A stretch of 64,000 bases of DNA, taken from contig NZ_CP092332.1 of NCBI RefSeq assembly GCF_029866485.1, positions 1,612,001 to 1,676,000 on the forward strand. Reading direction: 5' to 3'. The DNA comes from Flavobacterium keumense. GTDB taxonomy: Bacteria > Bacteroidota > Bacteroidia > Flavobacteriales > Flavobacteriaceae. A program made the position numbers and the translations under genes. Shown here in pieces: positions 40,205 to 51,375 of this stretch. Under the pieces are notes generated by a model that searched no databases, was not told the DNA's origin, and was given only the letters and a program-made list of their open reading frames with translations. Each line of letters starts with the position of its first letter. Position 1 is the first letter of the stretch.

Positions 40205-40885
40205 CTACTCTGCCATTTTCTTTAATTTGCCAATTTCTTTTAAGGTGATTTTTTTACCCGATAATTCAATCAAACCTAATTTATTGAAATCAGAAAGTAA
40301 ACGAATACAACTTTCGGTAGCGGTGCCAATCATACTGGCAAGTTCTTCTCTTGATAATTGTACTTTTAGGCTGTCATCATCATTTTTACCGAAGGTATCG
40401 GCTAAATAAAGTAAGGTTTCGGCGAGACGTTCTTTAACCGTTTTTTGAGCCATATTCACGGCATGGTCATCTGCTTCTTTTAAATCGCCACAAATCGTTT
40501 TCATGACATTCATAGAAAACTGATTGTTTTTCTCAAAAAAATCCATCACTTCAGATCGTGGTATAAAACAAACTTCCATGTCTTCTAAGGCAATCGCACT
40601 TAAATTCACAGGTTCGTCACTAATAATAGAACGTTGTCCTAGTAATTCACCTTTTTTGATGAGTTTAACAATATGATCTTTTCCGTTAGCACTCAATTTA
40701 GAGAGTTTGCAAACACCATCTTTGATACAATAAATTCCATTTATGGTTTCGCCTTCTTCAAAAATAACATCCCCTTTCTTAATTGAATATGATTTTTTGC
40801 ATTCTGAAAGGCGGACTAATTCTTCCTTATTTAAGGCTTTTAAAGAGCTGAATTCTCTAACAATACATTGTTCACATTTACTCAT
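40205..40885 (-). CDS. Crp/Fnr-family regulator, Fnr-like with candidate iron-sulfur cysteines
   Basis: 226 residues. An N-terminal CxxC (Cys4, Cys7) and Cys29 precede the cyclic-nucleotide-binding-like beta-roll (KKGDVIFEEGETINGIYCIKDG). Cys106 in MEVCFIPR aligns with the central cluster Cys of E. coli FNR. Four cysteines could thus hold a [4Fe-4S] cluster for oxygen sensing, which is an inference. The helix-turn-helix at the C-terminus has LSREELASMIGTATESCIRLL, keeping the Glu and Arg that read TGA half-sites. It is divergent from ccoI. A TGACAAATGTCA palindrome in the shared region probably serves both genes. Confidence 0.9.
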   Translation of the reverse strand: MSKCEQCIVREFSSLKALNKEELVRLSECKKSYSIKKGDVIFEEGETINGIYCIKDGVCKLSKLSANGKDHIVKLIKKGELLGQRSIISDEPVNLSAIALEDMEVCFIPRSEVMDFFEKNNQFSMNVMKTICGDLKEADDHAVNMAQKTVKERLAETLLYLADTFGKNDDDSLKVQLSREELASMIGTATESCIRLLSDFNKLGLIELSGKKITLKEIGKLKKMAE

Positions 40886-40912: not shown

Positions 40913-40920
40913 CAAATTTA
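40913..40920 (-). promoter_or_regulatory. -7 box of the Fnr-like regulator gene
   Basis: TAAATTTG on the minus strand, 28 nt before the ATG. The palindrome at 40931-40942 falls over its spacer and -33 region, where a bound regulator would block transcription. Confidence 0.5.
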
Positions 40921-40930
40921 ATGATTATTA

Positions 40931-40942
40931 TGACAAATGTCA
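40931..40942. promoter_or_regulatory. Fnr-like site upstream of ccoI
   Basis: TGACAAATGTCA is an inverted repeat of TGAC with a 4-nt centre. It ends exactly 23 nt before the presumed ccoI -7 box GACCTTTG (40966-40973). Confidence 0.65.
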
Positions 40943-40963
40943 TATTTTTAATAGGAACAATTG

Positions 40964-40977
40964 GTGACCTTTGTCAC
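40964..40977. promoter_or_regulatory. second palindrome over the ccoI promoter
   Basis: GTGACCTTTGTCAC carries TGAC-N4-GTCA and contains the presumed -7 box. It could be a second binding site, possibly repressive, or only the core promoter. Confidence 0.45.
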
Positions 40978-40997
40978 AGGTAAAATGAGCAAAGACT

Positions 40998-43379
40998 ATG
41001 GATACAAAAAACTGTTTCCATTGCGGTTTAGAGATTATAGAAAAAGAAGAAATTGTCTTTGATGACAAATTATTTTGTTGCACAGGTTGTAAAACCGTGT
41101 ATGAAATTTTTAGTCTCAATGATATGACTTGTTATTATGATTTTGAAAAATCGCCTGGAGCAACTCCACAAGATATTAATGGTAAATATGATTTCTTAGA
41201 TAATGAAAGTATTGTGTCAAAACTGTTGGAATTCGAAGAGAATGCAACCGCTATTGTTTCACTTAACATTCCTCATATACATTGTAGCTCGTGTATTTGG
41301 ATTTTGGAAAATTTACAACGTCTTCAAAAGGGAATAAGTACTTCTCAAGTTAATTTTCCAGAAAAAAAAGTCCGAATTACCTACAAACCAGAAGAGGTTT
41401 CGCTCAAAGAAATTGTCTATTTACTGAGTGGAATTGGCTATGAACCTTACATAAGTTTAGAAAACTATGAGGCAGGCTCCAATAAAGTTGATAGAAGTTT
41501 AACCTATAAATTAGGAGTCGCGTTCTTTTGTTTTGGCAATATTATGTTGCTTTCCTTTCCCGAATATTTTGAAGTAAAAGAATATTGGCTCGACCAATAC
41601 CGTGGTTTTTTCCGTTGGTTAATTTTTGCATTATCATTACCGAGTTTCTTATACTCCGCAAGTGGTTATTATGTGTCGGCCTATAAAAGCATTAAATCCA
41701 AAATGCTCAATATTGACATTCCAATCGCGTTAGGAATCATTGTGATGTTTGTGCGCAGTACTGTAGATATTGTAATGGATTATGGTTCTGGCTTTTTTGA
41801 TAGCTTAACGGGTTTAGTTTTCTTTATGCTTTTAGGGAAAATGTTCCAAATCAAAACCTATAGTTTCTTGAGTTTTGAACGTGATTTCAAATCGTATTTC
41901 CCCATTGCCATCACGCGAATTCAAGGCAATTCAGAACAAAGTATCCCTGTTTATGATATTCAAAAAGGCGACAGATTACTCATTCGCAATCAAGAATTAA
42001 TTCCTGTAGATGGTATTTTAATCTCTGAAACAGCCGAAATTGATTATAGTTTTGTAACGGGAGAAGCTATTCCTATTACCAAAAAGTCAGGAGACAAAGT
42101 ATTTGCAGGAGGAAAGCAAATAGGTACAATGGTCGAAATGGAAGTGTTGCATTCGGTCTCTCAAAGTTATTTGACACAATTATGGAGTAATGATGTGTTT
42201 AAAAAAAAGGTAGTACAAAAACACAAGACCATTACCGATCAAATTTCCCGCTATTTCACTCCGCTTTTGCTTTTAATTGCTTTTGGAGGTTTTGGTTATT
42301 GGATTTTCAAAGATGTCAATATCGCCTTTAATGTATTTACTGCAGTATTAATAGTCGCTTGTCCTTGTGCTTTGGCATTAACAGCACCGTTTACTTTTGG
42401 AAATATTCTTCGAATTCTAGGTAAGAAAAAATTCTATCTCAAAAATGCTTTAGTAATTGAACAATTAGCGAATGTTGATACCATTGTTTTTGATAAAACA
42501 GGAACGATTACTACCAATAAAAAATCAAATATTTCATTCCAAGGAGAAGCGCTTTCAGAAAACAAAATCGCTTTAGTTAAAAATGTACTTCGTGCGTCTA
42601 ATCATCCATTGAGTCGCATGTTGTATGACTTTTTGCCAGAAACAAAAAGAATAAAATTGGATTCATTTGAAGAGATTACTGGAAAAGGAATTCAAGCTCA
42701 AATAGATGAAACGATTATACAGTTAGGGTCAGCTTCTTTTGTGGGTTCGATAGAAGAAAATGAGGTTCAACAAACTTCAGTTCATATTAAAATAAATGGG
42801 AATTATTTAGGAAAATATGTTTTCAATAATCAATACCGAGAAGGTTTGGCAACACTTTTTGCTAATTTGAGTCAGCAGTATCAATTGAAAATACTTTCAG
42901 GAGATAATGAAGGAGAACGAGAGGCATTAGAAAAATTATTACCGAAAGGAACCGAATTAATTTTTAATCAAAAGCCAGAGCAAAAATTAGCGTTCATTAA
43001 AAATTTGCAAGAAAGCGGGAAGAATGTAATGATGGTAGGAGATGGATTGAATGACGCAGGTGCTTTAGCACAAAGCAATGTGGGGATTGCAATATCCGAA
43101 AATGTGAATGTGTTTTCTCCAGCATGTGATGCCATTTTAGATGCAAGTGTGTTTCAGCAGCTTCATTCGTTTTTGAAACTTTCTAAAAAATCCATCACAA
43201 CGATTAAAATGAGCTTTACATTATCGCTATTGTATAACGTTGTTGGATTGTCATTTGCAGTTACAGGGAATTTATTACCTCTTGTGGCAGCTATTATTAT
43301 GCCCTTGAGTACCATTACGATAGTGAGTTTTGTAACCTTATCTAGTAATTATTATGCCAAAAGAGTAGAAAAGAAATAA
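40998..43379 (+). CDS. ccoI: copper-translocating P-type ATPase of cbb3 oxidase assembly (CcoI/FixI)
   Basis: 793 residues. It exports copper towards the site where the cbb3 CuB centre is assembled. The N-terminus has a metal-binding Cys-rich module (CFHC at 6-9, CCTGC at 27-31). A heavy-metal-associated domain follows with CSSC (96-99). About eight membrane segments surround the actuator motif TGEAIP (355-360), the ion-path motif CPC (455-457), the phosphorylation site DKTGT (499-503) and the hinge VGDGLNDAGAL. The extended N-terminus is characteristic of CcoI rather than CopA. It heads the cco cluster under its own Fnr-like site. Confidence 0.94.
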   Translation: MDTKNCFHCGLEIIEKEEIVFDDKLFCCTGCKTVYEIFSLNDMTCYYDFEKSPGATPQDINGKYDFLDNESIVSKLLEFEENATAIVSLNIPHIHCSSCIWILENLQRLQKGISTSQVNFPEKKVRITYKPEEVSLKEIVYLLSGIGYEPYISLENYEAGSNKVDRSLTYKLGVAFFCFGNIMLLSFPEYFEVKEYWLDQYRGFFRWLIFALSLPSFLYSASGYYVSAYKSIKSKMLNIDIPIALGIIVMFVRSTVDIVMDYGSGFFDSLTGLVFFMLLGKMFQIKTYSFLSFERDFKSYFPIAITRIQGNSEQSIPVYDIQKGDRLLIRNQELIPVDGILISETAEIDYSFVTGEAIPITKKSGDKVFAGGKQIGTMVEMEVLHSVSQSYLTQLWSNDVFKKKVVQKHKTITDQISRYFTPLLLLIAFGGFGYWIFKDVNIAFNVFTAVLIVACPCALALTAPFTFGNILRILGKKKFYLKNALVIEQLANVDTIVFDKTGTITTNKKSNISFQGEALSENKIALVKNVLRASNHPLSRMLYDFLPETKRIKLDSFEEITGKGIQAQIDETIIQLGSASFVGSIEENEVQQTSVHIKINGNYLGKYVFNNQYREGLATLFANLSQQYQLKILSGDNEGEREALEKLLPKGTELIFNQKPEQKLAFIKNLQESGKNVMMVGDGLNDAGALAQSNVGIAISENVNVFSPACDAILDASVFQQLHSFLKLSKKSITTIKMSFTLSLLYNVVGLSFAVTGNLLPLVAAIIMPLSTITIVSFVTLSSNYYAKRVEKK

Positions 43380-43430
43380 AACGATTTTTTATTCTTTTTT
43401 TGATTAAATTTAATAGAAATAAGTGTAGTA

Positions 43431-43442
43431 TGATAAATGTCA
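43431..43442. promoter_or_regulatory. Fnr-like site upstream of ccoS
   Basis: TGATAAATGTCA (TGAy-N4-rTCA) ends 23 nt before the -7 box TAACTTTG at 43466-43473. Confidence 0.7.
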
Positions 43443-43465
43443 TATTTTTTAAAGAGTACTACAAC

Positions 43466-43473
43466 TAACTTTG
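43466..43473 (+). promoter_or_regulatory. -7 box of the ccoS-ccoNO operon
   Basis: TAACTTTG matches TAnnTTTG and lies 18 nt before the ccoS ATG. The Fnr-like site takes the place of a -33 element, as at a class II activated promoter. Confidence 0.6.
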
Positions 43474-43491
43474 TTAACATAATTTTAAGGT

Positions 43492-43683
43492 ATGAGTGTT
43501 ATTTATTTATTAATCTCGATTAGTATCCTAGTAGCCATAGGTTTTTTTATCGCTTTTATAAGAGCAGTAAAAACAGGACAATACGACGATGATTATACGC
43601 CTTCAGTCAGAATGCTTTTTGATGACGAGCTTAAAGTAAAACCAAATAAATCAGTACAAACAATAGAAGAAAAACAAATTTAA
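43492..43683 (+). CDS. ccoS: cbb3-type oxidase assembly protein CcoS
   Basis: 63 residues. A single N-terminal membrane helix (VIYLLISISILVAIGFFIAFI) is followed by the conserved GQYDDDYTPSVRMLFDDE. This matches CcoS, a small membrane protein needed to insert cofactors into the cbb3 catalytic subunit. It precedes ccoNO by 2 nt and is the first gene of the Fnr-controlled operon. Confidence 0.93.
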   Translation: MSVIYLLISISILVAIGFFIAFIRAVKTGQYDDDYTPSVRMLFDDELKVKPNKSVQTIEEKQI

Positions 43684-43685
43684 TT

Positions 43686-45863
43686 ATGGAAATGCAACAA
43701 TTTTATTACGACAACAAAATTGTAAAGAAATTCCTTTACGCCACCATTGTTTTTGGTGTAGTAGGAATGTTAGTTGGACTTATTCTGGCTTTTATGTTTC
43801 TTTTTCCAAACGTTACCGACGGAATTTCGTGGTTGAGTTTTGGTAGATTGAGACCTTTACATACTAATGCAGTTATTTTTGCCTTTGTGGGTAATGCTAT
43901 GTTTGCTGGGGTATATTATTCCATGCAACGTCTCCTAAAAGCAAGAATGTTTAGTGATTTTTTAAGTAATCTTAACTTTTGGGGTTGGCAATTAATAATT
44001 GTTGCAGCAGCCGTTTCTTTGCCATTGGGATTTAGTACTTCAAAAGAATATGCTGAATTAGAATGGCCAATCGATATCGCAATTGCATTGATTTGGGTTG
44101 TTTTTGGTATCAATATGATTGGAACCATTTTGAAAAGAAGAGAGCGTCACTTGTATGTGGCTATTTGGTTCTACTTAGCAACTTTTGTAACTGTAGCGGT
44201 ATTACATATTTTCAACAGTTTAGAATTGCCTATTTCTGGAATGAAAAGTTATTCAGTATATGCTGGGGTTCAAGATGCTTTGGTACAATGGTGGTACGGC
44301 CATAATGCGGTTGCATTCTTTTTAACCACACCATTCTTAGGATTGATGTATTATTTTGTTCCAAAAGCAGCCAATCGTCCTGTATACTCGTATAGACTTT
44401 CTATTGTTCACTTTTGGTCTTTGATCTTTATTTATATCTGGGCAGGGCCACACCATTTATTATACTCTGCGTTACCAACTTGGGCACAAAATTTAGGAGT
44501 AGTTTTCTCAGTAATGTTGATTGCTCCATCTTGGGGAGGTATGATTAATGGTTTGTTAACCTTAAGAGGAGTTTGGGACAAAGTACGAGTTGAGCCAGTA
44601 TTGAAGTTTTTTGTAGTAGCTATTACAGGTTATGGTATGGCTACTTTTGAAGGACCAATGTTGTCTCTTAAAAATGTAAATGCTATTGCACACTATACGG
44701 ATTGGATTATTGCTCACGTACACGTTGGTGCTTTGGCTTGGAACGGATTTATGGCGTTTGGTATGATTTATTGGTTGATACCACGAATGACTAAAACTCC
44801 TTTATATTCAACTAAATTGGCTAATTTTCACTTTTGGATTGGTACATTAGGAATTATACTTTATGCGCTGCCAATGTATGTTGCTGGTTTTACACAAGCT
44901 TCAATGTGGAAACAATTCAATCCAGATGGAACCTTAACTTACGGTAATTTCCTTGAGACGGTTACCCAAATTATGCCGATGTATTTAATGAGAGCTGTGG
45001 GAGGAACTATGTATCTTGTAGGAATGTTAGTGTTGGTATATAATATTATTCAAACCGTGAGAGCAGGTCAATCTATCGAAGATGAATTAGCTGAAGCTCC
45101 TGAATTAAAACAAATCAGCAGTGGAAGATTAAAAGGAGAAAAATTCCATCCTTGGTTGGAAAGAAAACCAATCCAATTGACAATTTTGGCTACAGTAGCG
45201 ATTTTAATTGGAGGTATTATTCAAATTGTACCTACAATTATGGTAAAATCGAATATCCCTACAATTACAAGTGTTAAGCCTTATACACCATTAGAATTAG
45301 AAGGACGTGATTTATACATTCGTGAAGGGTGTGTGGGATGTCACTCACAATCGGTTAGACCGTTCCGTAGTGAAGTAGAACGTTATGGACCACAATCTAA
45401 AGCAGGAGAGTTTGTATACGATCATCCATTCCTTTGGGGATCAAAACGTACTGGACCCGATTTATTGAGAGTAGGTGGGAAGTATAATGACAACTGGCAT
45501 TTCAATCACTTTTGGAATCCACAAAGTATTTCAGCGGGTTCAATTATGCCAGGATATAAATGGTTGTTTGACAATGAGGCAATGGATATTTCTATGACTC
45601 AAAAGAAAATGGAAGCAATGGTTACTCTTGGAGTACCTTATACTCCAGCTCAGGTCGCTAATGCTCAAAAAGATTTAAGAGCTCAAGCTATTACAATTGA
45701 AGAGAGCTTGAAAAATGATCCTGACTTTGTGAAAAGTTATGATGAAAGCAAGAAAAAAGCAGCCGCTAAAGGCGAAAAATTTGTTCCAATGAACGAAAGA
45801 GAAATCGTAGCCTTAATTGCTTATATGCAAAGATTAGGAACTGATATCAAAGTAAAAAAATAA
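43686..45863 (+). CDS. ccoNO: cbb3-type cytochrome c oxidase, fused subunits I and II (CcoNO)
   Basis: 725 residues. Residues about 1-480 form the 12-helix heme-copper subunit I. The conserved histidines are visible in LRPLHTNAVIF, WWYGHNAVAFF, WAGPHHLLYSA and DWIIAHVHVGALAWNG. After a further anchor helix (about 500-520), the CcoO part carries one c-type heme site, Cys549-Val-Gly-Cys552-His553, and the typical SQSVRPFRSEVERYG and GPDLLRVGGKY. In most Proteobacteria these are two proteins; the fusion is usual in Bacteroidota. This high-affinity oxidase reduces oxygen under low supply. Confidence 0.96.
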   Translation: MEMQQFYYDNKIVKKFLYATIVFGVVGMLVGLILAFMFLFPNVTDGISWLSFGRLRPLHTNAVIFAFVGNAMFAGVYYSMQRLLKARMFSDFLSNLNFWGWQLIIVAAAVSLPLGFSTSKEYAELEWPIDIAIALIWVVFGINMIGTILKRRERHLYVAIWFYLATFVTVAVLHIFNSLELPISGMKSYSVYAGVQDALVQWWYGHNAVAFFLTTPFLGLMYYFVPKAANRPVYSYRLSIVHFWSLIFIYIWAGPHHLLYSALPTWAQNLGVVFSVMLIAPSWGGMINGLLTLRGVWDKVRVEPVLKFFVVAITGYGMATFEGPMLSLKNVNAIAHYTDWIIAHVHVGALAWNGFMAFGMIYWLIPRMTKTPLYSTKLANFHFWIGTLGIILYALPMYVAGFTQASMWKQFNPDGTLTYGNFLETVTQIMPMYLMRAVGGTMYLVGMLVLVYNIIQTVRAGQSIEDELAEAPELKQISSGRLKGEKFHPWLERKPIQLTILATVAILIGGIIQIVPTIMVKSNIPTITSVKPYTPLELEGRDLYIREGCVGCHSQSVRPFRSEVERYGPQSKAGEFVYDHPFLWGSKRTGPDLLRVGGKYNDNWHFNHFWNPQSISAGSIMPGYKWLFDNEAMDISMTQKKMEAMVTLGVPYTPAQVANAQKDLRAQAITIEESLKNDPDFVKSYDESKKKAAAKGEKFVPMNEREIVALIAYMQRLGTDIKVKK

Positions 45864-45874
45864 TATAGTACGTC

Positions 45875-46054
45875 ATGTTTGAACAAATAAAACATAATAT
45901 GGAAACCATCGCCGGAGTTGCGATTTATCCAATACTGTCATTGTTGATTTTCTTTTTATTCTTTGTAGGATTAGGACTTTGGGTTTTCTCCTATAAGAAA
46001 GAAAAAATAGAAGAGATGAGCCAAATTCCATTGAATGACAATCCATCATTATAA
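45875..46054 (+). CDS. ccoQ: small cbb3 oxidase subunit CcoQ
   Basis: 59 residues. One membrane helix (IYPILSLLIFFLFFVGLGLWVF) is followed by a charged tail, SYKKEKIEEMSQIPLND. Size, topology and the place between ccoNO (11 nt) and ccoP (18 nt) identify it as the FixQ/CcoQ subunit, which stabilises the complex. Sequence conservation in this family is low, so position carries much of the call. Confidence 0.85.
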   Translation: MFEQIKHNMETIAGVAIYPILSLLIFFLFFVGLGLWVFSYKKEKIEEMSQIPLNDNPSL

Positions 46055-46072
46055 TTTTTTAAACTTTTAAAA

Positions 46073-46972
46073 ATGAAAAAATTAATCCCTGTATATGTAA
46101 GAGTTCCTCTTATTTTCTTCGCCGTTTTTGGTGCAATGGAATTTTTTATTGACTCTGGAGACCGTCCTGCTTTTGTGAAATTTCCAATGGTGTCTGTATT
46201 CTTATTTGTGTTTCTATTTCTTTTAATTGCAATAGAAATTACAATTAGTGCAATTGATAAGATTACCTATCAATTATTGACTGAAGAACAAAAAGCAAAG
46301 TTAGAAGAAGCTACACAATTAGGTTTTAAAGAAAGCCAATGGTATGCTAAAATCATGAAAGCCTTGACCAAGTCAGAACCAATGGAGAATGAAGGTCAAC
46401 TTTTATTGGATCATGATTATGATGGAATCAAAGAATTAGATAACAATTTACCACCATGGTGGTTGTACTTATTCTATGCTTGTATCGTATTTTCGGTAGT
46501 ATATTTAGTTCGTTTTGAAATTCTTGGAGCTGATGATCAAGAGACCGAATTGAAAAAAGAATTGGCACAAGCCAAAATTGAAGTAGCCGAATATATGAAA
46601 ACAGCTCCGGATTTAATGGACGAAAAAACAGTTACTTTAGTTACAGACGCACCTACATTGGCAGAAGGGAAAACCATTTTCGAAACCAATTGTGCTGCTT
46701 GTCATAGAGCGGATGCTGGGGGACAAATTGGACCTAACTTAACTGATGAGTACTGGATTTTAGGAGGAGGAATCAAAAACTTGTTCCATACGATTACCAA
46801 TGGTGGTCGTGACGGAAAAGGTATGATTGCTTGGAAAGGTACTTTGAAACCAAAAGAAATTCAAAAAGTAGCGAGTTATATTATTTCTTTGAAAGGAAGT
46901 AATCCAAAAGATCCAAAAGCACCAGATGGAGAAATCTGGGTTGAAGAAGCTACTGCAACACCTGCAAAATAA
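46073..46972 (+). CDS. ccoP: cbb3 oxidase subunit III (CcoP), single-heme form
   Basis: 299 residues. Two hydrophobic segments near the N-terminus (about 9-20 and 42-60) and one at about 125-145 precede the C-terminal cytochrome c domain. That domain has one heme motif, Cys207-Ala-Ala-Cys210-His211, then GGQIGPNLTDEYW and the likely methionine ligand in GRDGKGMIAWKGTL. Proteobacterial CcoP carries two CxxCH motifs; only one is present here. The 3' side has a long hairpin before ccoG. Confidence 0.93.
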   Translation: MKKLIPVYVRVPLIFFAVFGAMEFFIDSGDRPAFVKFPMVSVFLFVFLFLLIAIEITISAIDKITYQLLTEEQKAKLEEATQLGFKESQWYAKIMKALTKSEPMENEGQLLLDHDYDGIKELDNNLPPWWLYLFYACIVFSVVYLVRFEILGADDQETELKKELAQAKIEVAEYMKTAPDLMDEKTVTLVTDAPTLAEGKTIFETNCAACHRADAGGQIGPNLTDEYWILGGGIKNLFHTITNGGRDGKGMIAWKGTLKPKEIQKVASYIISLKGSNPKDPKAPDGEIWVEEATATPAK

Positions 46973-46984
46973 ATAAACACGAAC

Positions 46985-47020
46985 TAAAAGACCAATTTCA
47001 AATCTGAAATTGGTCTTTTA
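46985..47020 (+). other. 15-bp hairpin between ccoP and ccoG
   Basis: TAAAAGACCAATTTC (46985-46999) pairs perfectly with 47006-47020, with loop AAATCT. Only four T residues follow, so it looks like a partial terminator or an RNA-processing and stability element. It would separate oxidase-subunit from accessory-gene expression. Confidence 0.6.
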
Positions 47021-47033
47021 AAATTACAGCATA

Positions 47034-48452
47034 ATGTCCAGTTTACAAGATGAGTCTTTTAGAGACAGTATCGGTACTATTGATGAGGCCGGAAAAAGAA
47101 AATATGTATTTCCTAAAAAACCTTCAGGTAGGTTGTATGAGTACCGAAAATTAGTCAGTTATTTTTTATTGGCTATTCTTATTGCTAATCCATTCATTAA
47201 AGTTAATGGCAACCAGTTCATGATGTTCAATGTCTTGGAACGCCGATTTAATATTTTTGGATTTCCATTTTGGCCTCAAGATTTTTATCTGTTTGTATTA
47301 TTCATGATTGTTGGGGTCGTTTTTGTTATTCTCTTTACCGTTATTTTTGGGAGGATATTTTGTGGATGGATTTGTCCGCAAACCATCTTTTTAGAAATGG
47401 TTTTTCGTCGAATAGAGTATTGGATTGAAGGAGATCGAGGAGCACAAATCCGATTGAGTAAACAAGAATGGAATGCCGAGAAGATTAGAAAAAAAGGAAT
47501 CAAATGGTTTTTGTTTCTTGTGATTTCTTTTTTCATTGCGAATGTATTTTTAGCCTATTTAATCAGTAGTGATGAATTGCTAAAAATGATTGAAGAGGGA
47601 CCCGAAAGTCATTTGAGTACTTTAATTGCGTTATTGATTTTTACAGGCGTTTTTTATTTCGTTTTTGTTTGGTTTAGAGAACAAGTGTGCATCATTGCGT
47701 GTCCTTATGGAAGATTACAAGGAGTACTTTTGGATAACAAATCGATTAATGTGGCGTACGATTTTGTACGTGGCGAAAAAGAAGCAGGAAGAGCTAAATT
47801 CAATAAAAATGAAGATCGTGCTACAGCCGGAAAAGGAGATTGTATCGATTGCCACCAATGTGTACACGTTTGTCCTACAGGAATAGATATTAGAAACGGA
47901 ACACAATTGGAATGTGTAAACTGCACTGCTTGTATTGATGAGTGCGATACTATTATGGAAAGCGTTGGTTTACCCAAAGGTTTAATTCGTTATGCATCCG
48001 AAGACGAAATTGAGAAAAACGCTAAGTTTAAATTTACAGCAAGGATGAAAGGCTACACAGCTGTATTAATTATCTTGGTTGGAGTATTAACAGGTTTATT
48101 GTTTTTGCGAACCGATGTAGAGGCAACAATCTTACGTTTGCCAGGTCAATTGTACCAACATAAAGGTGAAAATATCAGTAATATCTATACCTTTAAAATT
48201 ATTAATAAGACCAATGAAGAATTTAAGGATATTCACTTTAAATTGGTTGGAATTAAAGGGAGTTTGAAGGTAGTAGGAAAACAAGATTTTAAAGTGCCAA
48301 AACAAGGTATGAACAGTGGAACTTTATTTGTTGAAATTAATCAATATCTCTTAGAAACAGATAAAACCAAGTTAGAAATTGAGGTGTATAACGGAAATAA
48401 AAAAATTGAAACAGCAACGACAAATTTCTTAAGTCCGAGAAGTTTTGATTAG
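47034..48452 (+). CDS. ccoG: cbb3 oxidase accessory ferredoxin-like protein CcoG (FixG/RdxA)
   Basis: 472 residues. Membrane segments near 40-57, 80-105 and 160-180 and one at about 195-215 lead to a double 4Fe-4S module. The cysteines are in CIDCHQCVHVCP and CVNCTACIDECD, with further conserved Cys in FGRIFCGWICPQ and VCIIACPYGRLQG. A final helix (TAVLIILVGVLTGLLFL) is followed by an Ig-like domain. CcoG reduces copper for the assembly of the cbb3 CuB site. It lies downstream of ccoP without a visible promoter. Confidence 0.94.
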   Translation: MSSLQDESFRDSIGTIDEAGKRKYVFPKKPSGRLYEYRKLVSYFLLAILIANPFIKVNGNQFMMFNVLERRFNIFGFPFWPQDFYLFVLFMIVGVVFVILFTVIFGRIFCGWICPQTIFLEMVFRRIEYWIEGDRGAQIRLSKQEWNAEKIRKKGIKWFLFLVISFFIANVFLAYLISSDELLKMIEEGPESHLSTLIALLIFTGVFYFVFVWFREQVCIIACPYGRLQGVLLDNKSINVAYDFVRGEKEAGRAKFNKNEDRATAGKGDCIDCHQCVHVCPTGIDIRNGTQLECVNCTACIDECDTIMESVGLPKGLIRYASEDEIEKNAKFKFTARMKGYTAVLIILVGVLTGLLFLRTDVEATILRLPGQLYQHKGENISNIYTFKIINKTNEEFKDIHFKLVGIKGSLKVVGKQDFKVPKQGMNSGTLFVEINQYLLETDKTKLEIEVYNGNKKIETATTNFLSPRSFD

Positions 48453-48472
48453 ATAACTTAATATTAAGAAAA

Positions 48473-48922
48473 ATGAAAATCAATTGGGGAACAGGTATTG
48501 TAATAGCTTTTGGATTATTTATGGCGTTTATTCTCTATTTTGTTGTTGAGGTGCAATCCAATTCAAAATATGATAATGATTTAGTAGTAGAGGAATATTA
48601 TAAGCACGATGCACAATTTGGAAAAGAAATGGAGCGTATTCAAAATGCTCAGGATTTACCAGAAAAGCCAAAAGTGGAATTGACTACACAAGGAGCTCAA
48701 ATAACATTTCCAGTGACTTTTGTTCCTACTAAAATAAAAGGAAAAGTATCCCTTTACAGGCCATCTAACAAGAAAATGGATTTTGAAGTGCCAATTTCGA
48801 TTTCTGAACCAACTTTGCTCGTACCTAAAAAAAGTTTGGTAGGTGGCCGTTGGGATATTAATATGGAATGGCAATACGAAGGGAAATCGTATTTATCTAA
48901 AGAAACCATCTATATTAATTAG
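48473..48922 (+). CDS. ccoH: FixH-family protein (CcoH)
   Basis: 149 residues. One N-terminal membrane helix (GIVIAFGLFMAFILYFVVEV) carries a conserved periplasmic domain with NLDLV-type opening (here YDNDLVVEEYYKHD), a central beta-rich part and the closing WDINMEWQYEGKSYLSKE. This matches FixH, which works with CcoI and CcoG in maturation or stability of the cbb3 oxidase. It follows ccoG by 20 nt and precedes the TauE/SafE-family gene by 6 nt. Confidence 0.9.
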   Translation: MKINWGTGIVIAFGLFMAFILYFVVEVQSNSKYDNDLVVEEYYKHDAQFGKEMERIQNAQDLPEKPKVELTTQGAQITFPVTFVPTKIKGKVSLYRPSNKKMDFEVPISISEPTLLVPKKSLVGGRWDINMEWQYEGKSYLSKETIYIN

Positions 48923-48928
48923 CCGTTT

Positions 48929-49630
48929 ATGTTGTATTCTGCTTTCATCTTTGGTCTAATTAGTAGCTTGCATTGCATTGGAATGTGTGGGCCAATTGCC
49001 ATGATGATCCCAGTAGATAGTACTAATCCAACAAAAAAAGCGACTCAAATTATAACGTATCATCTGGGTCGTTTGGTAGCTTATGCTACAATCGGATTGC
49101 TTTTTGGTTTGGTAGGAAAAGGTTTTTTTTTAGCAGGAATTCAACAAAGATTATCCATATTTATTGGCGTAGCAATGATTATAACTATTCTAACTCCCGA
49201 AAGAGTTTTGGCCAATTATAATTTTTCTAAACCAGTATATCGATTAATTTCAAAGATTAAAATGGCCTTAGGAAAACAATTTAAAAATAGAAGTTACCAA
49301 TCATTGTTTACCATTGGCGTATTAAATGGGTTTCTGCCATGCGGTATGGTGTATGTGGCTTTATTTGGTGCCATTGCTATGCAAAATGTATCTTTAGGTA
49401 TAACCTATATGTTGCTTTTTGGATTGGGCACTATTCCGATGATGAGCAGTGTGACGTATCTCAATTCTTTTATGACTCTTTCATTTCGCAATAAGGTTCA
49501 AAAAGCGATTCCTTATGTTGGAGTTATTATTGGTGTTTTATTTATACTACGCGGATTGGGATTGGGAATTCCATACATTTCACCGGCTAAAATGAGTTTA
49601 TTTGTTCAAGAAACACCCAATTGTCATTAA
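48929..49630 (+). CDS. TauE/SafE (DsbD-like) family membrane protein of the cco cluster
   Basis: 233 residues with about six membrane segments. The opening SAFIFGLISSLHCIGMCGPIA and the later NGFLPCGMVYVALFGAI are the paired conserved Cys-containing motifs of the DsbD_2/SafE-like branch. Relatives are regularly found at the end of cco clusters and are thought to help in copper or thiol handling during cytochrome oxidase assembly. The exact cargo is unknown. It lies only 6 nt after ccoH, so it belongs to the same operon. Confidence 0.87.
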   Translation: MLYSAFIFGLISSLHCIGMCGPIAMMIPVDSTNPTKKATQIITYHLGRLVAYATIGLLFGLVGKGFFLAGIQQRLSIFIGVAMIITILTPERVLANYNFSKPVYRLISKIKMALGKQFKNRSYQSLFTIGVLNGFLPCGMVYVALFGAIAMQNVSLGITYMLLFGLGTIPMMSSVTYLNSFMTLSFRNKVQKAIPYVGVIIGVLFILRGLGLGIPYISPAKMSLFVQETPNCH

Positions 49631-49660
49631 TAAAAATTAGAATTTAAATTATTATAAAAA

Positions 49661-49891
49661 ATGGAAAGACACGATTTATTACACGAATTACCAGAGTACC
49701 AAGATAGAATTCATCAATTGAAAGTGAATAATGCACATTTCAGAAAAGTTTTTGATGACTACCACGAATTAGAGCATGAAATTCATAGAATCAATACAGG
49801 AGTGGAAACAACTACTGATGAACATTTACATCAATTGAAAGCTAATTTATTGTTTATGAAAGATGAATTAGTATCGATTATTAAAAGTTAG
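49661..49891 (+). CDS. DUF465 (YdcH-like) small coiled-coil protein
   Basis: 76 residues, entirely helical and charged. Its pattern (LPEYQDRIHQLKVNNAHFRKVFDDYHELEHEI, here read as two adjacent blocks of the DUF465 family) is typical. The function is unknown. It is the last gene of the plus-strand cco run, 30 nt after the TauE/SafE gene, and is closed by a strong bidirectional terminator. Confidence 0.88.
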   Translation: MERHDLLHELPEYQDRIHQLKVNNAHFRKVFDDYHELEHEIHRINTGVETTTDEHLHQLKANLLFMKDELVSIIKS

Positions 49892-49908
49892 ATTATTTCT
49901 ATAGGAAT

Positions 49909-49938
49909 AAAAAAGCACACTTAATAGTGTGCTTTTTT
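49909..49938. terminator. bidirectional terminator between the cco run and hemN
   Basis: AAAAAAGCACACT (49909-49921) and AGTGTGCTTTTTT (49926-49938) form a perfect 13-bp stem with a TAAT loop. It serves two convergent genes. Confidence 0.88.
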
Positions 49939-49947
49939 ATTATTCTT

Positions 49948-51312
49948 TTAAATTGTCATTGAAAACAAAGCAGTATCAGGTGCTTTTCGTTTTAAAAGTA
50001 AGTCAAATGCCATACAAACATTACGAACAAATGGTTTTCCGTCTTCTGTTACTCTCATCCCATTTGAAATAAATTCAATGAGTCCATCTTTTTCCATTTC
50101 TTTTAATTGAATTACTATTTCGGGAATTTCATTAAAGTAGTTTTTTGGATTGGCCCAAGAGGTTTCAAATTGGCACATTAAATTCAAAATATGTCTTCGG
50201 ATGATTAAATCTTCTTCAGTCAATAGATGGCCTCTAAATACAGGAATAGTATTGGTGTCTAAAAATTGGTAATATTCTTCTATAGTTTTTACATTTTGAG
50301 CAAAGCTGTACCAACTATCACTAATAGACGAAACACCTAAACCAATCATCAATTGCGTTTTGGAAGAACTGTATCCCATAAAATTACGATGTAGTTTGCC
50401 TACTTCAAAGGAATGAAATAAACTATCGGTTGTTAAAGCAAAATGATCCATCCCAATTTCGTGATAGTCATTTTCGTAGAGTAATTCTTTGCCTATTTCG
50501 TAGAGTTCCCGTTTTTTATCATCTTTAGGAATGTCCTCATCATTGAATCCGCGTTGCCCATTTCCTTTTATCCAAGGCACATGGGCATAGCTGTAAAAAG
50601 CTAAACGGTCAGGTTGTAACGACTTGGTTTTCTCAATAGTATCAATCACATCCTCTTTTTCTTGGAAAGGTAGTCCAAAAATAATGTCATGACCTATTGA
50701 AGTATAGCCAATTTCTCTAGCCCACAAAGTTACTTTAGCAACATTTAGAAAGGGTTGGATGCGGTGAATGGCTTTTTGTACTTTTTCAGAATAATCTTGA
50801 ACTCCAAAACTTACTCGTCTAAAACCCAGATCATATAATTTTTGCAGCTGTTCTCGGGTGGTATTATTAGGATGTCCTTCAAAACTAAATTCATAATCGG
50901 AGGCTTTATTTGCTTTTGCAAAAATTCCATTGATAAGTATCTCTAAATTTTCAGAAGAGAAAAAAGTAGGTGTTCCTCCACCCAAATGAATTTCTTTAAT
51001 ATTGGGTCTTTCGCCAAGAATATCGCAATATAAATCCCATTCCTTTACAACGGCTTTGATGTAAGGGTTTTCTACTTCGTGATTTTTAGTTATTCTTTTG
51101 TTACAACCACAAAAAGTACACATGCTTTCGCAAAAAGGGAGATGAATATACAAACTAATTCCTTCTGTTGAATTACTTTCTACAAATGATTTTTTAAGAG
51201 TGCTTAACCAAATTTCATATGTAAAATCACCTTCATTCCAATACGGAACGGTCGGGTAACTGGTGTACCTTGGTCCAGGGACATTGTACTTTTGAAGTAG
51301 TGAATTAGTCAT
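49948..51312 (-). CDS. hemN: oxygen-independent coproporphyrinogen III oxidase
   Basis: 454 residues. This radical-SAM enzyme decarboxylates coproporphyrinogen III to protoporphyrinogen IX without oxygen. The cluster motif is Cys61-x3-Cys65-x2-Cys68-x-Cys70 (CESMCTFCGC), the signature of HemN proper rather than HemW-like proteins. The GGGTPTFF and GHDIIFGLPFQ segments and the C-terminal helical domain with VCMAFDLLL are typical. It has a dedicated promoter with an Fnr-like palindrome and lies beside the cbb3 cluster, so it supplies heme when oxygen is low. Confidence 0.96.
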   Translation of the reverse strand: MTNSLLQKYNVPGPRYTSYPTVPYWNEGDFTYEIWLSTLKKSFVESNSTEGISLYIHLPFCESMCTFCGCNKRITKNHEVENPYIKAVVKEWDLYCDILGERPNIKEIHLGGGTPTFFSSENLEILINGIFAKANKASDYEFSFEGHPNNTTREQLQKLYDLGFRRVSFGVQDYSEKVQKAIHRIQPFLNVAKVTLWAREIGYTSIGHDIIFGLPFQEKEDVIDTIEKTKSLQPDRLAFYSYAHVPWIKGNGQRGFNDEDIPKDDKKRELYEIGKELLYENDYHEIGMDHFALTTDSLFHSFEVGKLHRNFMGYSSSKTQLMIGLGVSSISDSWYSFAQNVKTIEEYYQFLDTNTIPVFRGHLLTEEDLIIRRHILNLMCQFETSWANPKNYFNEIPEIVIQLKEMEKDGLIEFISNGMRVTEDGKPFVRNVCMAFDLLLKRKAPDTALFSMTI

Positions 51313-51332
51313 AATAAATTCATTTGAAAGTT

Positions 51333-51340
51333 CAAAAGTA
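51333..51340 (-). promoter_or_regulatory. hemN -7 promoter box
   Basis: TACTTTTG on the minus strand, 20 nt before the ATG, matches TAnnTTTG. Confidence 0.6.
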
Positions 51341-51363
51341 AGCGGACCTTCGATGAATTAAAA

Positions 51364-51375
51364 TGATAATTATCA
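51364..51375. promoter_or_regulatory. Fnr-like site upstream of hemN
   Basis: TGATAATTATCA is a perfect TGAT-N4-ATCA palindrome, 16 bp when extended (51362-51377). It ends 23 nt before the -7 box on the minus strand. A Fur-type site has similar base content, but the spacing and gene function favour Fnr. Confidence 0.7.

Follow-up and report, generated by a model that had tools for sequence, protein, structure and literature searches.

Background

The closest described systems to the one analysed here are the FNR-activated promoters of Escherichia coli, the sigma-A promoters of Flavobacterium psychrophilum and the HcpR regulators of Bacteroidota. The FNR box has the consensus TTGAT-N4-ATCAA, and 19 of the 23 directly activated E. 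coli FNR promoters with a known start carry the site at -41.5 (+/-4) (PMC3688515). The sigma-A promoters of F. psychrophilum carry TAnnTTTG at -12 to -5, and when oxygen becomes limiting this species raises its genes for the cbb3 oxidase and for heme synthesis (PMC9723704); the main text of that paper contains no occurrence of Fnr or Crp. The present study concerns a window of 64,000 nucleotides (nt) of Flavobacterium keumense (contig NZ_CP092332.1, positions 1,612,001 to 1,676,000), in which Fnr-like boxes of the form TGAY-N4-RTCA stand upstream of ccoI, ccoS and hemN, each 23 nt from a -7 element of the Bacteroidota type. The boxes are probably operators of an Fnr-like activator acting at low oxygen, most likely the product of the Crp/Fnr-family gene adjoining ccoI.

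The locus resembles the class II promoters of E. coli FNR in having a dimeric box of the Crp/Fnr type built on a TGA...TCA core, in the centre of the box at -41.5 and in its low-oxygen respiration targets. It differs in the outer bases of the box, which are A or C ... T here and T...A in FNR, in the -7 element (TAnnTTTG) that stands in place of the -10 and -35 elements, and in the regulator's set of four invariant cysteines, the fourth of which is C53 here and not at FNR's third position. With the F. psychrophilum sigma-A promoters it shares the TAnnTTTG element, and cbb3 and heme-synthesis genes are among those rising in that species. HcpR of Bacteroidota is likewise a Crp/Fnr-family protein of the same phylum; its descriptions concern hcp genes and nitrosative stress and do not extend to cbb3 or hemN (PMC1274295, PMC13370916). 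Among the titles and abstract openings listed in a search of open-licence papers, no paper on flavobacterial Fnr boxes was identified, and none was found on how an Fnr-like activator works with the promoter type of Bacteroidota.

Results and Discussion

Box and promoter layout in the window, the genome and the genus

The three boxes and their -7 elements that the initial annotation had noted were borne out by pattern matching (Table 1), and a direct check of the coordinates gave a gap of exactly 23 nt at ccoI (+), ccoS (+) and hemN (-). The elements at ccoS and hemN match the Bacteroidota sigma-A consensus TAnnTTTG exactly, but that of ccoI (GACCTTTG) lacks the first T, and the -7 assignment is exact at two of the three promoters only.

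The bare box is not unusual, with 7 occurrences in the window against 4.55 expected. The pattern TGAYN4RTCA-N24-ANNTTTG, in which the first base of the -7 element is relaxed, gave 5 matches in the whole genome of 2.54 Mb and 0 in the reversed-pattern control. Four of these matches stand in the right sense before genes, namely ccoI, ccoS, hemN and an open reading frame (ORF) of 41 amino acids (C1:1968337), while the fifth is a second ccoI box read backwards. With the strict TAnnTTTG and gaps of 9-39 nt the genome contained 20 matches (controls 2 and 2). Within the range of 22-24 nt, for which a scan had been proposed as a check, three of these lie at gap 23, two at gap 22 and one at gap 24; ccoI is absent from the strict matches because its -7 element is without the first T.

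The same spacing stood out in the genus. Among the matches listed for gaps of 9-39 nt (150, from 7 of 61 genomes, the seventh covered in part), gap 23 was found 40 times and gap 24 was found 19 times, and every other gap averaged 3.1. The strict 23-nt form MTGAYN4RTCAT-N22-TANNTTTG gave 116 sites, spread over 25 of 25 genus genomes, and the reversed control gave 0. Promoters of the E. coli type with -10 and -35 elements were also considered and rejected, the consensus scan yielding 42 matches against 48.1 in shuffles, which is no signal.

Conservation in relatives was analysed in a sample of 80 named loci, a site being an exact box with a -7 element of at most one mismatch; genes cut by or near a locus end, or below the score limits (180, 500, 40 and 300 bits), were left out of the counts. 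A gap-23 site was present upstream of ccoI in 38/63, of ccoS in 56/76 and of hemN in 18/28 cases, against means of 0, 0 and 0.05 in 40 shuffles of these upstream regions. These counts are not independent events because orthologues share descent, and the shuffles ignore kinship. With gaps of 22-24 nt allowed, the loci L023-L076 carried a site at 41 of 45 ccoI, 50 of 53 ccoS and 17 of 21 hemN genes. The boxes are kept at an equal distance in relatives, a point on which the first reading had been made to depend and which leaves it standing.

Anatomy of the proposed operator and the promoter

The anatomy was derived from 112 aligned gap-23 sites, with TAnnTTTG placed at -12 to -5 as in F. psychrophilum (PMC9723704). 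On this placement the box spans -47 to -36 and its centre falls at -41.5, the class II position that had been claimed for it. The base at -48 is A in 74, C in 33, G in 4 and T in 1 of the sites, and that at -35 is T in 111 and C in 1; the extended form MTGAY-N4-RTCAT was present in 106/112. The outer T...A pair of FNR occurred in 0/112 sites, and an outer A at -35 alone was also found in none of them. With A or C on one outer side and T on the other, and never T...A, the operator is therefore not the FNR box, and the earlier description as Fnr-like is right for the TGAY-N4-RTCA core but does not extend to the outer bases.

The box may take the place of a -33 element, as first proposed; downstream of it a run of T was observed at -33 to -30 (98, 97, 83 and 89 of the 112 promoters). 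A set of 96 box-free TAnnTTTG promoters, taken from ORFs of the loci L023-L076 and probably including some mutual orthologues, revealed no clear -33 element, the only rise being TTG at -28/-27 (12 and 9).

At -12, just 3/38 ccoI sites have a T compared with 74/74 ccoS and hemN sites, and the first T is thus missing in 35/38 ccoI promoters. The ccoI element, being off consensus, is probably weak, which would probably be expected if the activator does more of the work at this promoter or if the cell requires little of the ATPase.

The window also holds a second box overlapping the ccoI -7 element, which, read backwards, sits 23 nt from GACATTTG. As a general device such an overlap was rejected, since it was present at 1 of the 38 named gap-23 ccoI sites (L023).

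The neighbouring Fnr-like regulator

The product of the gene next to ccoI showed two Pfam domains above cut-off, cNMP_binding (PF00027, 1.7e-21) and HTH_Crp_2 (PF13545, 9.1e-17). With a cyclic-nucleotide-binding-type domain and a Crp-type helix-turn-helix it belongs to the Crp/Fnr superfamily. The AlphaFold model has a mean predicted local distance difference test (pLDDT) score of 90.3 and comprises a domain rich in strands, one long helix spanning residues 121-147 and a helical portion at the C terminus; among solved structures, its best relatives are 2gau, a Crp/Fnr regulator, and regulators of the FNR type.

Four cysteines, C4, C7, C53 and C106, are invariant in 37/37 and 35/35 regulator sequences of two overlapping sets, and C53 and C106 lie in confidently modelled strands (50-56 and 103-109). 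In an alignment with an FNR-type chain, C4, C7 and C106 each face a cysteine and C53 faces an alanine; the protein carries a CxxC motif and is without the four-cysteine arrangement of FNR, in which four cysteines bind the cluster. The score against the curated Fnr family model NF008365 was 92.8 bits, below the cut-off of 228. The regulator would act in the manner of FNR but was not classed as FNR proper, because its cysteine set, its box and the curated model were all tested and none of them agreed with FNR. The initial annotation, which had placed an Fnr-type regulator beside ccoI, holds for the gene and its Crp/Fnr domains but not for FNR in the narrow sense, given the low family score and the absent third cysteine.

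The recognition helix TES-x-IR is invariant among the regulator sequences, and in it the Glu and Arg are kept and an Ile occupies the place of Ser. By our own matching of residues, this Ile would fit the changed outer bases of the operator.

The link between regulator and box was further analysed by co-occurrence in 294 genomes of the order, with a homologue threshold of E <= 1e-20. Strict sites were found in 183/220 genomes with a regulator homologue against 1/74 without, the latter being the genomes absent among the matches listed and the site counts being whole for each genome; the contrast is inflated by genomes of very small size (0.3-0.6 Mb). Within the families f6, f7 and f9 the strict sites were present in 20/24 genomes with a homologue and in 0/22 without. 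In 32 named loci, as in the window, ccoI and the regulator gene are arranged divergently.

Proposed mechanism and alternative explanations

In the proposed mechanism, at low oxygen the regulator dimer, which may carry an iron-sulfur sensor, would bind MTGAY-N4-RTCAT centred at -41.5 and would help the housekeeping RNA polymerase of Bacteroidota to start at the -7 element 23 nt further on. The outcome would be that the cbb3 oxidase (ccoS-NO...), the metal-transport ATPase of its maturation (ccoI) and oxygen-independent heme synthesis (hemN) are switched on. In the region between regulator and ccoI, the bound protein would also block the promoter of the regulator itself where its -7 element is 9-11 nt off. 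The target genes as first annotated were confirmed by the families of the cbb3 oxidase, ccoI and hemN products, and the targets, their spacing and the adjacent Fnr-type gene are conserved in relatives.

Several observations weigh against this assignment. No strict site was found in 37 of the 220 genomes with a homologue, and the threshold of E <= 1e-20 lets paralogues in. The family f4 has sites, yet its homologues among the matches listed align only from about residue 11-19, and the f4 sites may therefore belong to another regulator. In the distant loci L077-L102 (mixed Bacteroidota plus a few others) the site at gaps of 22-24 nt was present in 3/18 cases for ccoI, 9/23 for ccoS and 1/7 for hemN; most of these promoters are without the layout, which therefore thins with distance. 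The third cluster cysteine of FNR aligns with Ser13 of the regulator, so that it is not certain to bind a cluster. The genome also encodes two other Crp/Fnr proteins (C1:2287427 and C1:191344; L104 and L105), both with a recognition helix REVISR that is nearer to E209/S212/R213 of FNR.

The genes following 115 of the 116 strict genus sites (one near a contig start, L130, being left out) were read, and nine proteins, one member per named group, were scanned for their families, most as the first 200 amino acids. The commonest were ccoS (23) and hemN (22), followed by NirK-like copper oxidases (8), YceI-like proteins (7), a protein of about 41 amino acids (7) and CBS-domain proteins (4). The remaining groups had at most 3 members each, among them NarK-like transporters (2), ScdA-type repair proteins (2), NorC-like cytochromes (2) and a flavohaemoglobin-like globin (1); the NarK match was below cut-off on the first 200 amino acids, and the NirK-, NorC- and flavohaemoglobin-like assignments are our own reading. 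Groups of 3 include TonB-type receptors and outer-membrane proteins, many sites are single, and some of the small-group or single sites may be chance.

The sites before NirK-, NarK-, ScdA-, NorC- and flavohaemoglobin-type genes, together with the missing third FNR cysteine, would suit a regulator responding to nitric oxide, or to some other redox signal, and not to oxygen. This is unlikely, however, as the most frequent targets are the cbb3 and heme genes, which are induced on oxygen limitation in F. psychrophilum (PMC9723704), and the oxygen-sensing FNR of E. coli also targets the narK, nirB and nrfA operons (PMC3688515).

The boxes could also belong to one of the other two Crp/Fnr proteins, the gene beside ccoI being a mere neighbour. 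Their REVISR helices include the three residues (E, S and R) through which the FNR box is contacted in E. coli (PMC4505428), but neither protein has a CxxC near its start, and the absence of the outer T...A pair from all 112 sites fits the invariant TES-x-IR helix of the neighbour better. Moreover, where the neighbour has no homologue, strict sites are present in only one of 74 genomes, in a count that covers the neighbour's homologues and not the other two proteins. We regard this assignment as quite improbable.

It is very unlikely that the box is the operator of a repressor placed at -41.5 by coincidence. Palindromes near the core promoter can be repressor sites, and position alone gives no sign of regulation; a gap fixed at 23 nt across different promoters, however, is what polymerase contact needs and a repressor does not, and the ccoI -7 element is off consensus in 35/38 sites. 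Chance in AT-rich DNA, to which the lack of enrichment of the bare box within the window might point, is counted as already refuted, since shuffles and reversed patterns gave about 0, in agreement with the initial judgement that three equal spacings are unlikely to arise by chance.

Probable autoregulation at the shared box

The box between ccoI and the divergent regulator gene is common to both, and the distance to the regulator's own -7 element was analysed in 33 divergent regions, the window (gap of 10 nt) included. An exact regulator-facing TAnnTTTG at 9-11 nt from the box was present in 17/33 regions, against a mean of 0.12 and a largest value of 2 after shuffling of positions; with one mismatch allowed the count was 21/33 against a shuffled mean of 1.9. 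The 9-11 nt layout puts the centre of the box near -28, inside the core promoter, and repression is therefore likely. This suggests, from the arrangement of the sequence, that the regulator represses its own gene where its -7 element sits 9-11 nt from the shared box.

In four regions (L035, L041, L042 and L047) the exact regulator -7 element lies at 23 nt instead (shuffled mean 0.025, largest 1), which would make both directions class II, and autorepression could there become autoactivation. Autoactivation as a general rule was rejected, the exact element being at 23 nt in only 4/33 regions versus 17/33 at 9-11 nt. Three further regions (L049, L072 and L076) have the exact element at 34 nt, 11 nt or about one helix turn beyond 23. 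In L042 a -7 element with one mismatch is also present at 9 nt.

Other candidate members of the regulon

The 41-amino-acid ORF (MRNLPLYSW...) has one likely membrane span and a box at gap 23 (L005 1501-1691; C1:1968272-1968459). Homologues were found in 22/61 genus genomes. With all 22 copies located by tblastn, 21 proved to carry the exact box at gap 23; the -7 element is free of mismatches in 17 of these and has a single one in the other 4. This proportion is not built in by the search, because the first copy was spotted via its box and the others were found by protein search. The ORF had no Pfam or NCBIfam match, and its 29 protein homologues are all hypothetical or uncharacterised by name. 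Judged by its promoter sequence, this small membrane protein would join the regulon, perhaps as a small cbb3 partner.

A gap-22 box with the sequence of the hemN box, TGATAATTATCA, was observed at C1:809389-809430 (minus strand, L010), its -7 element preceding by about 260 nt an ORF that has a FeoB_N domain; ferrous iron uptake may therefore join the regulon.

A separate class of sites at gap 24, with boxes like ATGATTT-N-ARTCATAA, comprised 23 sites in 15/21 genus genomes (L220-L242), with 2 in the reversed control. Several of them stand upstream of flavohaemoglobin-like ORFs and of a membrane protein of about 95 amino acids, by our own reading of the translations. This class may possibly belong to another, nitric-oxide-linked regulator.

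Table 1. Boxes, -7 elements and genes of the analysed window (positions within the window)
Feature	Coordinates	Strand	Evidence
Fnr-like Crp/Fnr-family regulator gene, 226 amino acids, proposed activator at the boxes	40205..40885	-	Pfam, AlphaFold, invariant cysteines
Regulator -7 element TAAATTTG, 10 nt from the box common to regulator and ccoI	40913..40920	-	
Box TGACAAATGTCA, common to ccoI (-7 element at 23 nt) and the divergent regulator gene (-7 element at 10 nt)	40931..40942		
Second box TGACCTTTGTCA, TGAC-N4-GTCA, overlapping the ccoI -7 element	40965..40976		
ccoI -7 element GACCTTTG, first T missing	40966..40973	+	
ccoI, heavy-metal P-type ATPase	40998..43379	+	Pfam E1-E2_ATPase, ATPase-cat_bd, HMA
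ccoS box TGATAAATGTCA	43431..43442		
ccoS -7 element TAACTTTG, 23 nt from the ccoS box	43466..43473	+	
ccoS	43492..43683	+	TIGR00847 above cut-off
ccoNO fusion, cbb3 oxidase subunits I and II	43686..45863	+	NCBIfam NF011053, 1341.9 bits (cut-off 1080)
hemN, oxygen-independent coproporphyrinogen III oxidase	49948..51312	-	TIGR00538, 423.3 bits (cut-off 324.95)
hemN -7 element TACTTTTG, 23 nt from the hemN box	51333..51340	-	
hemN box TGATAATTATCA	51364..51375		

Conclusion

The conserved class II-like layout is real, and the neighbouring Fnr-like protein most likely works it. A wider proposal, which is possible and put forward tentatively, is that the regulator represents an oxygen-regulator branch of Bacteroidota that has an operator of its own (MTGAY-N4-RTCAT), a cluster set rewired to C4, C7, C53 and C106, and class II promoters with a fixed gap of 23 nt. 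The shared box would then activate ccoI and set the sign of autoregulation by distance (repression at 9-11 nt, activation at 23 nt), and the regulon would include the protein of about 41 amino acids, perhaps a cbb3 partner. The position of the box at -41.5, kept in many species, offers a ready test of how an Fnr-like activator acts on Bacteroidota promoters, and the box with its spacing gives a motif for reading low-oxygen regulons from genome sequence. The regulon also yields a new small membrane protein to test.

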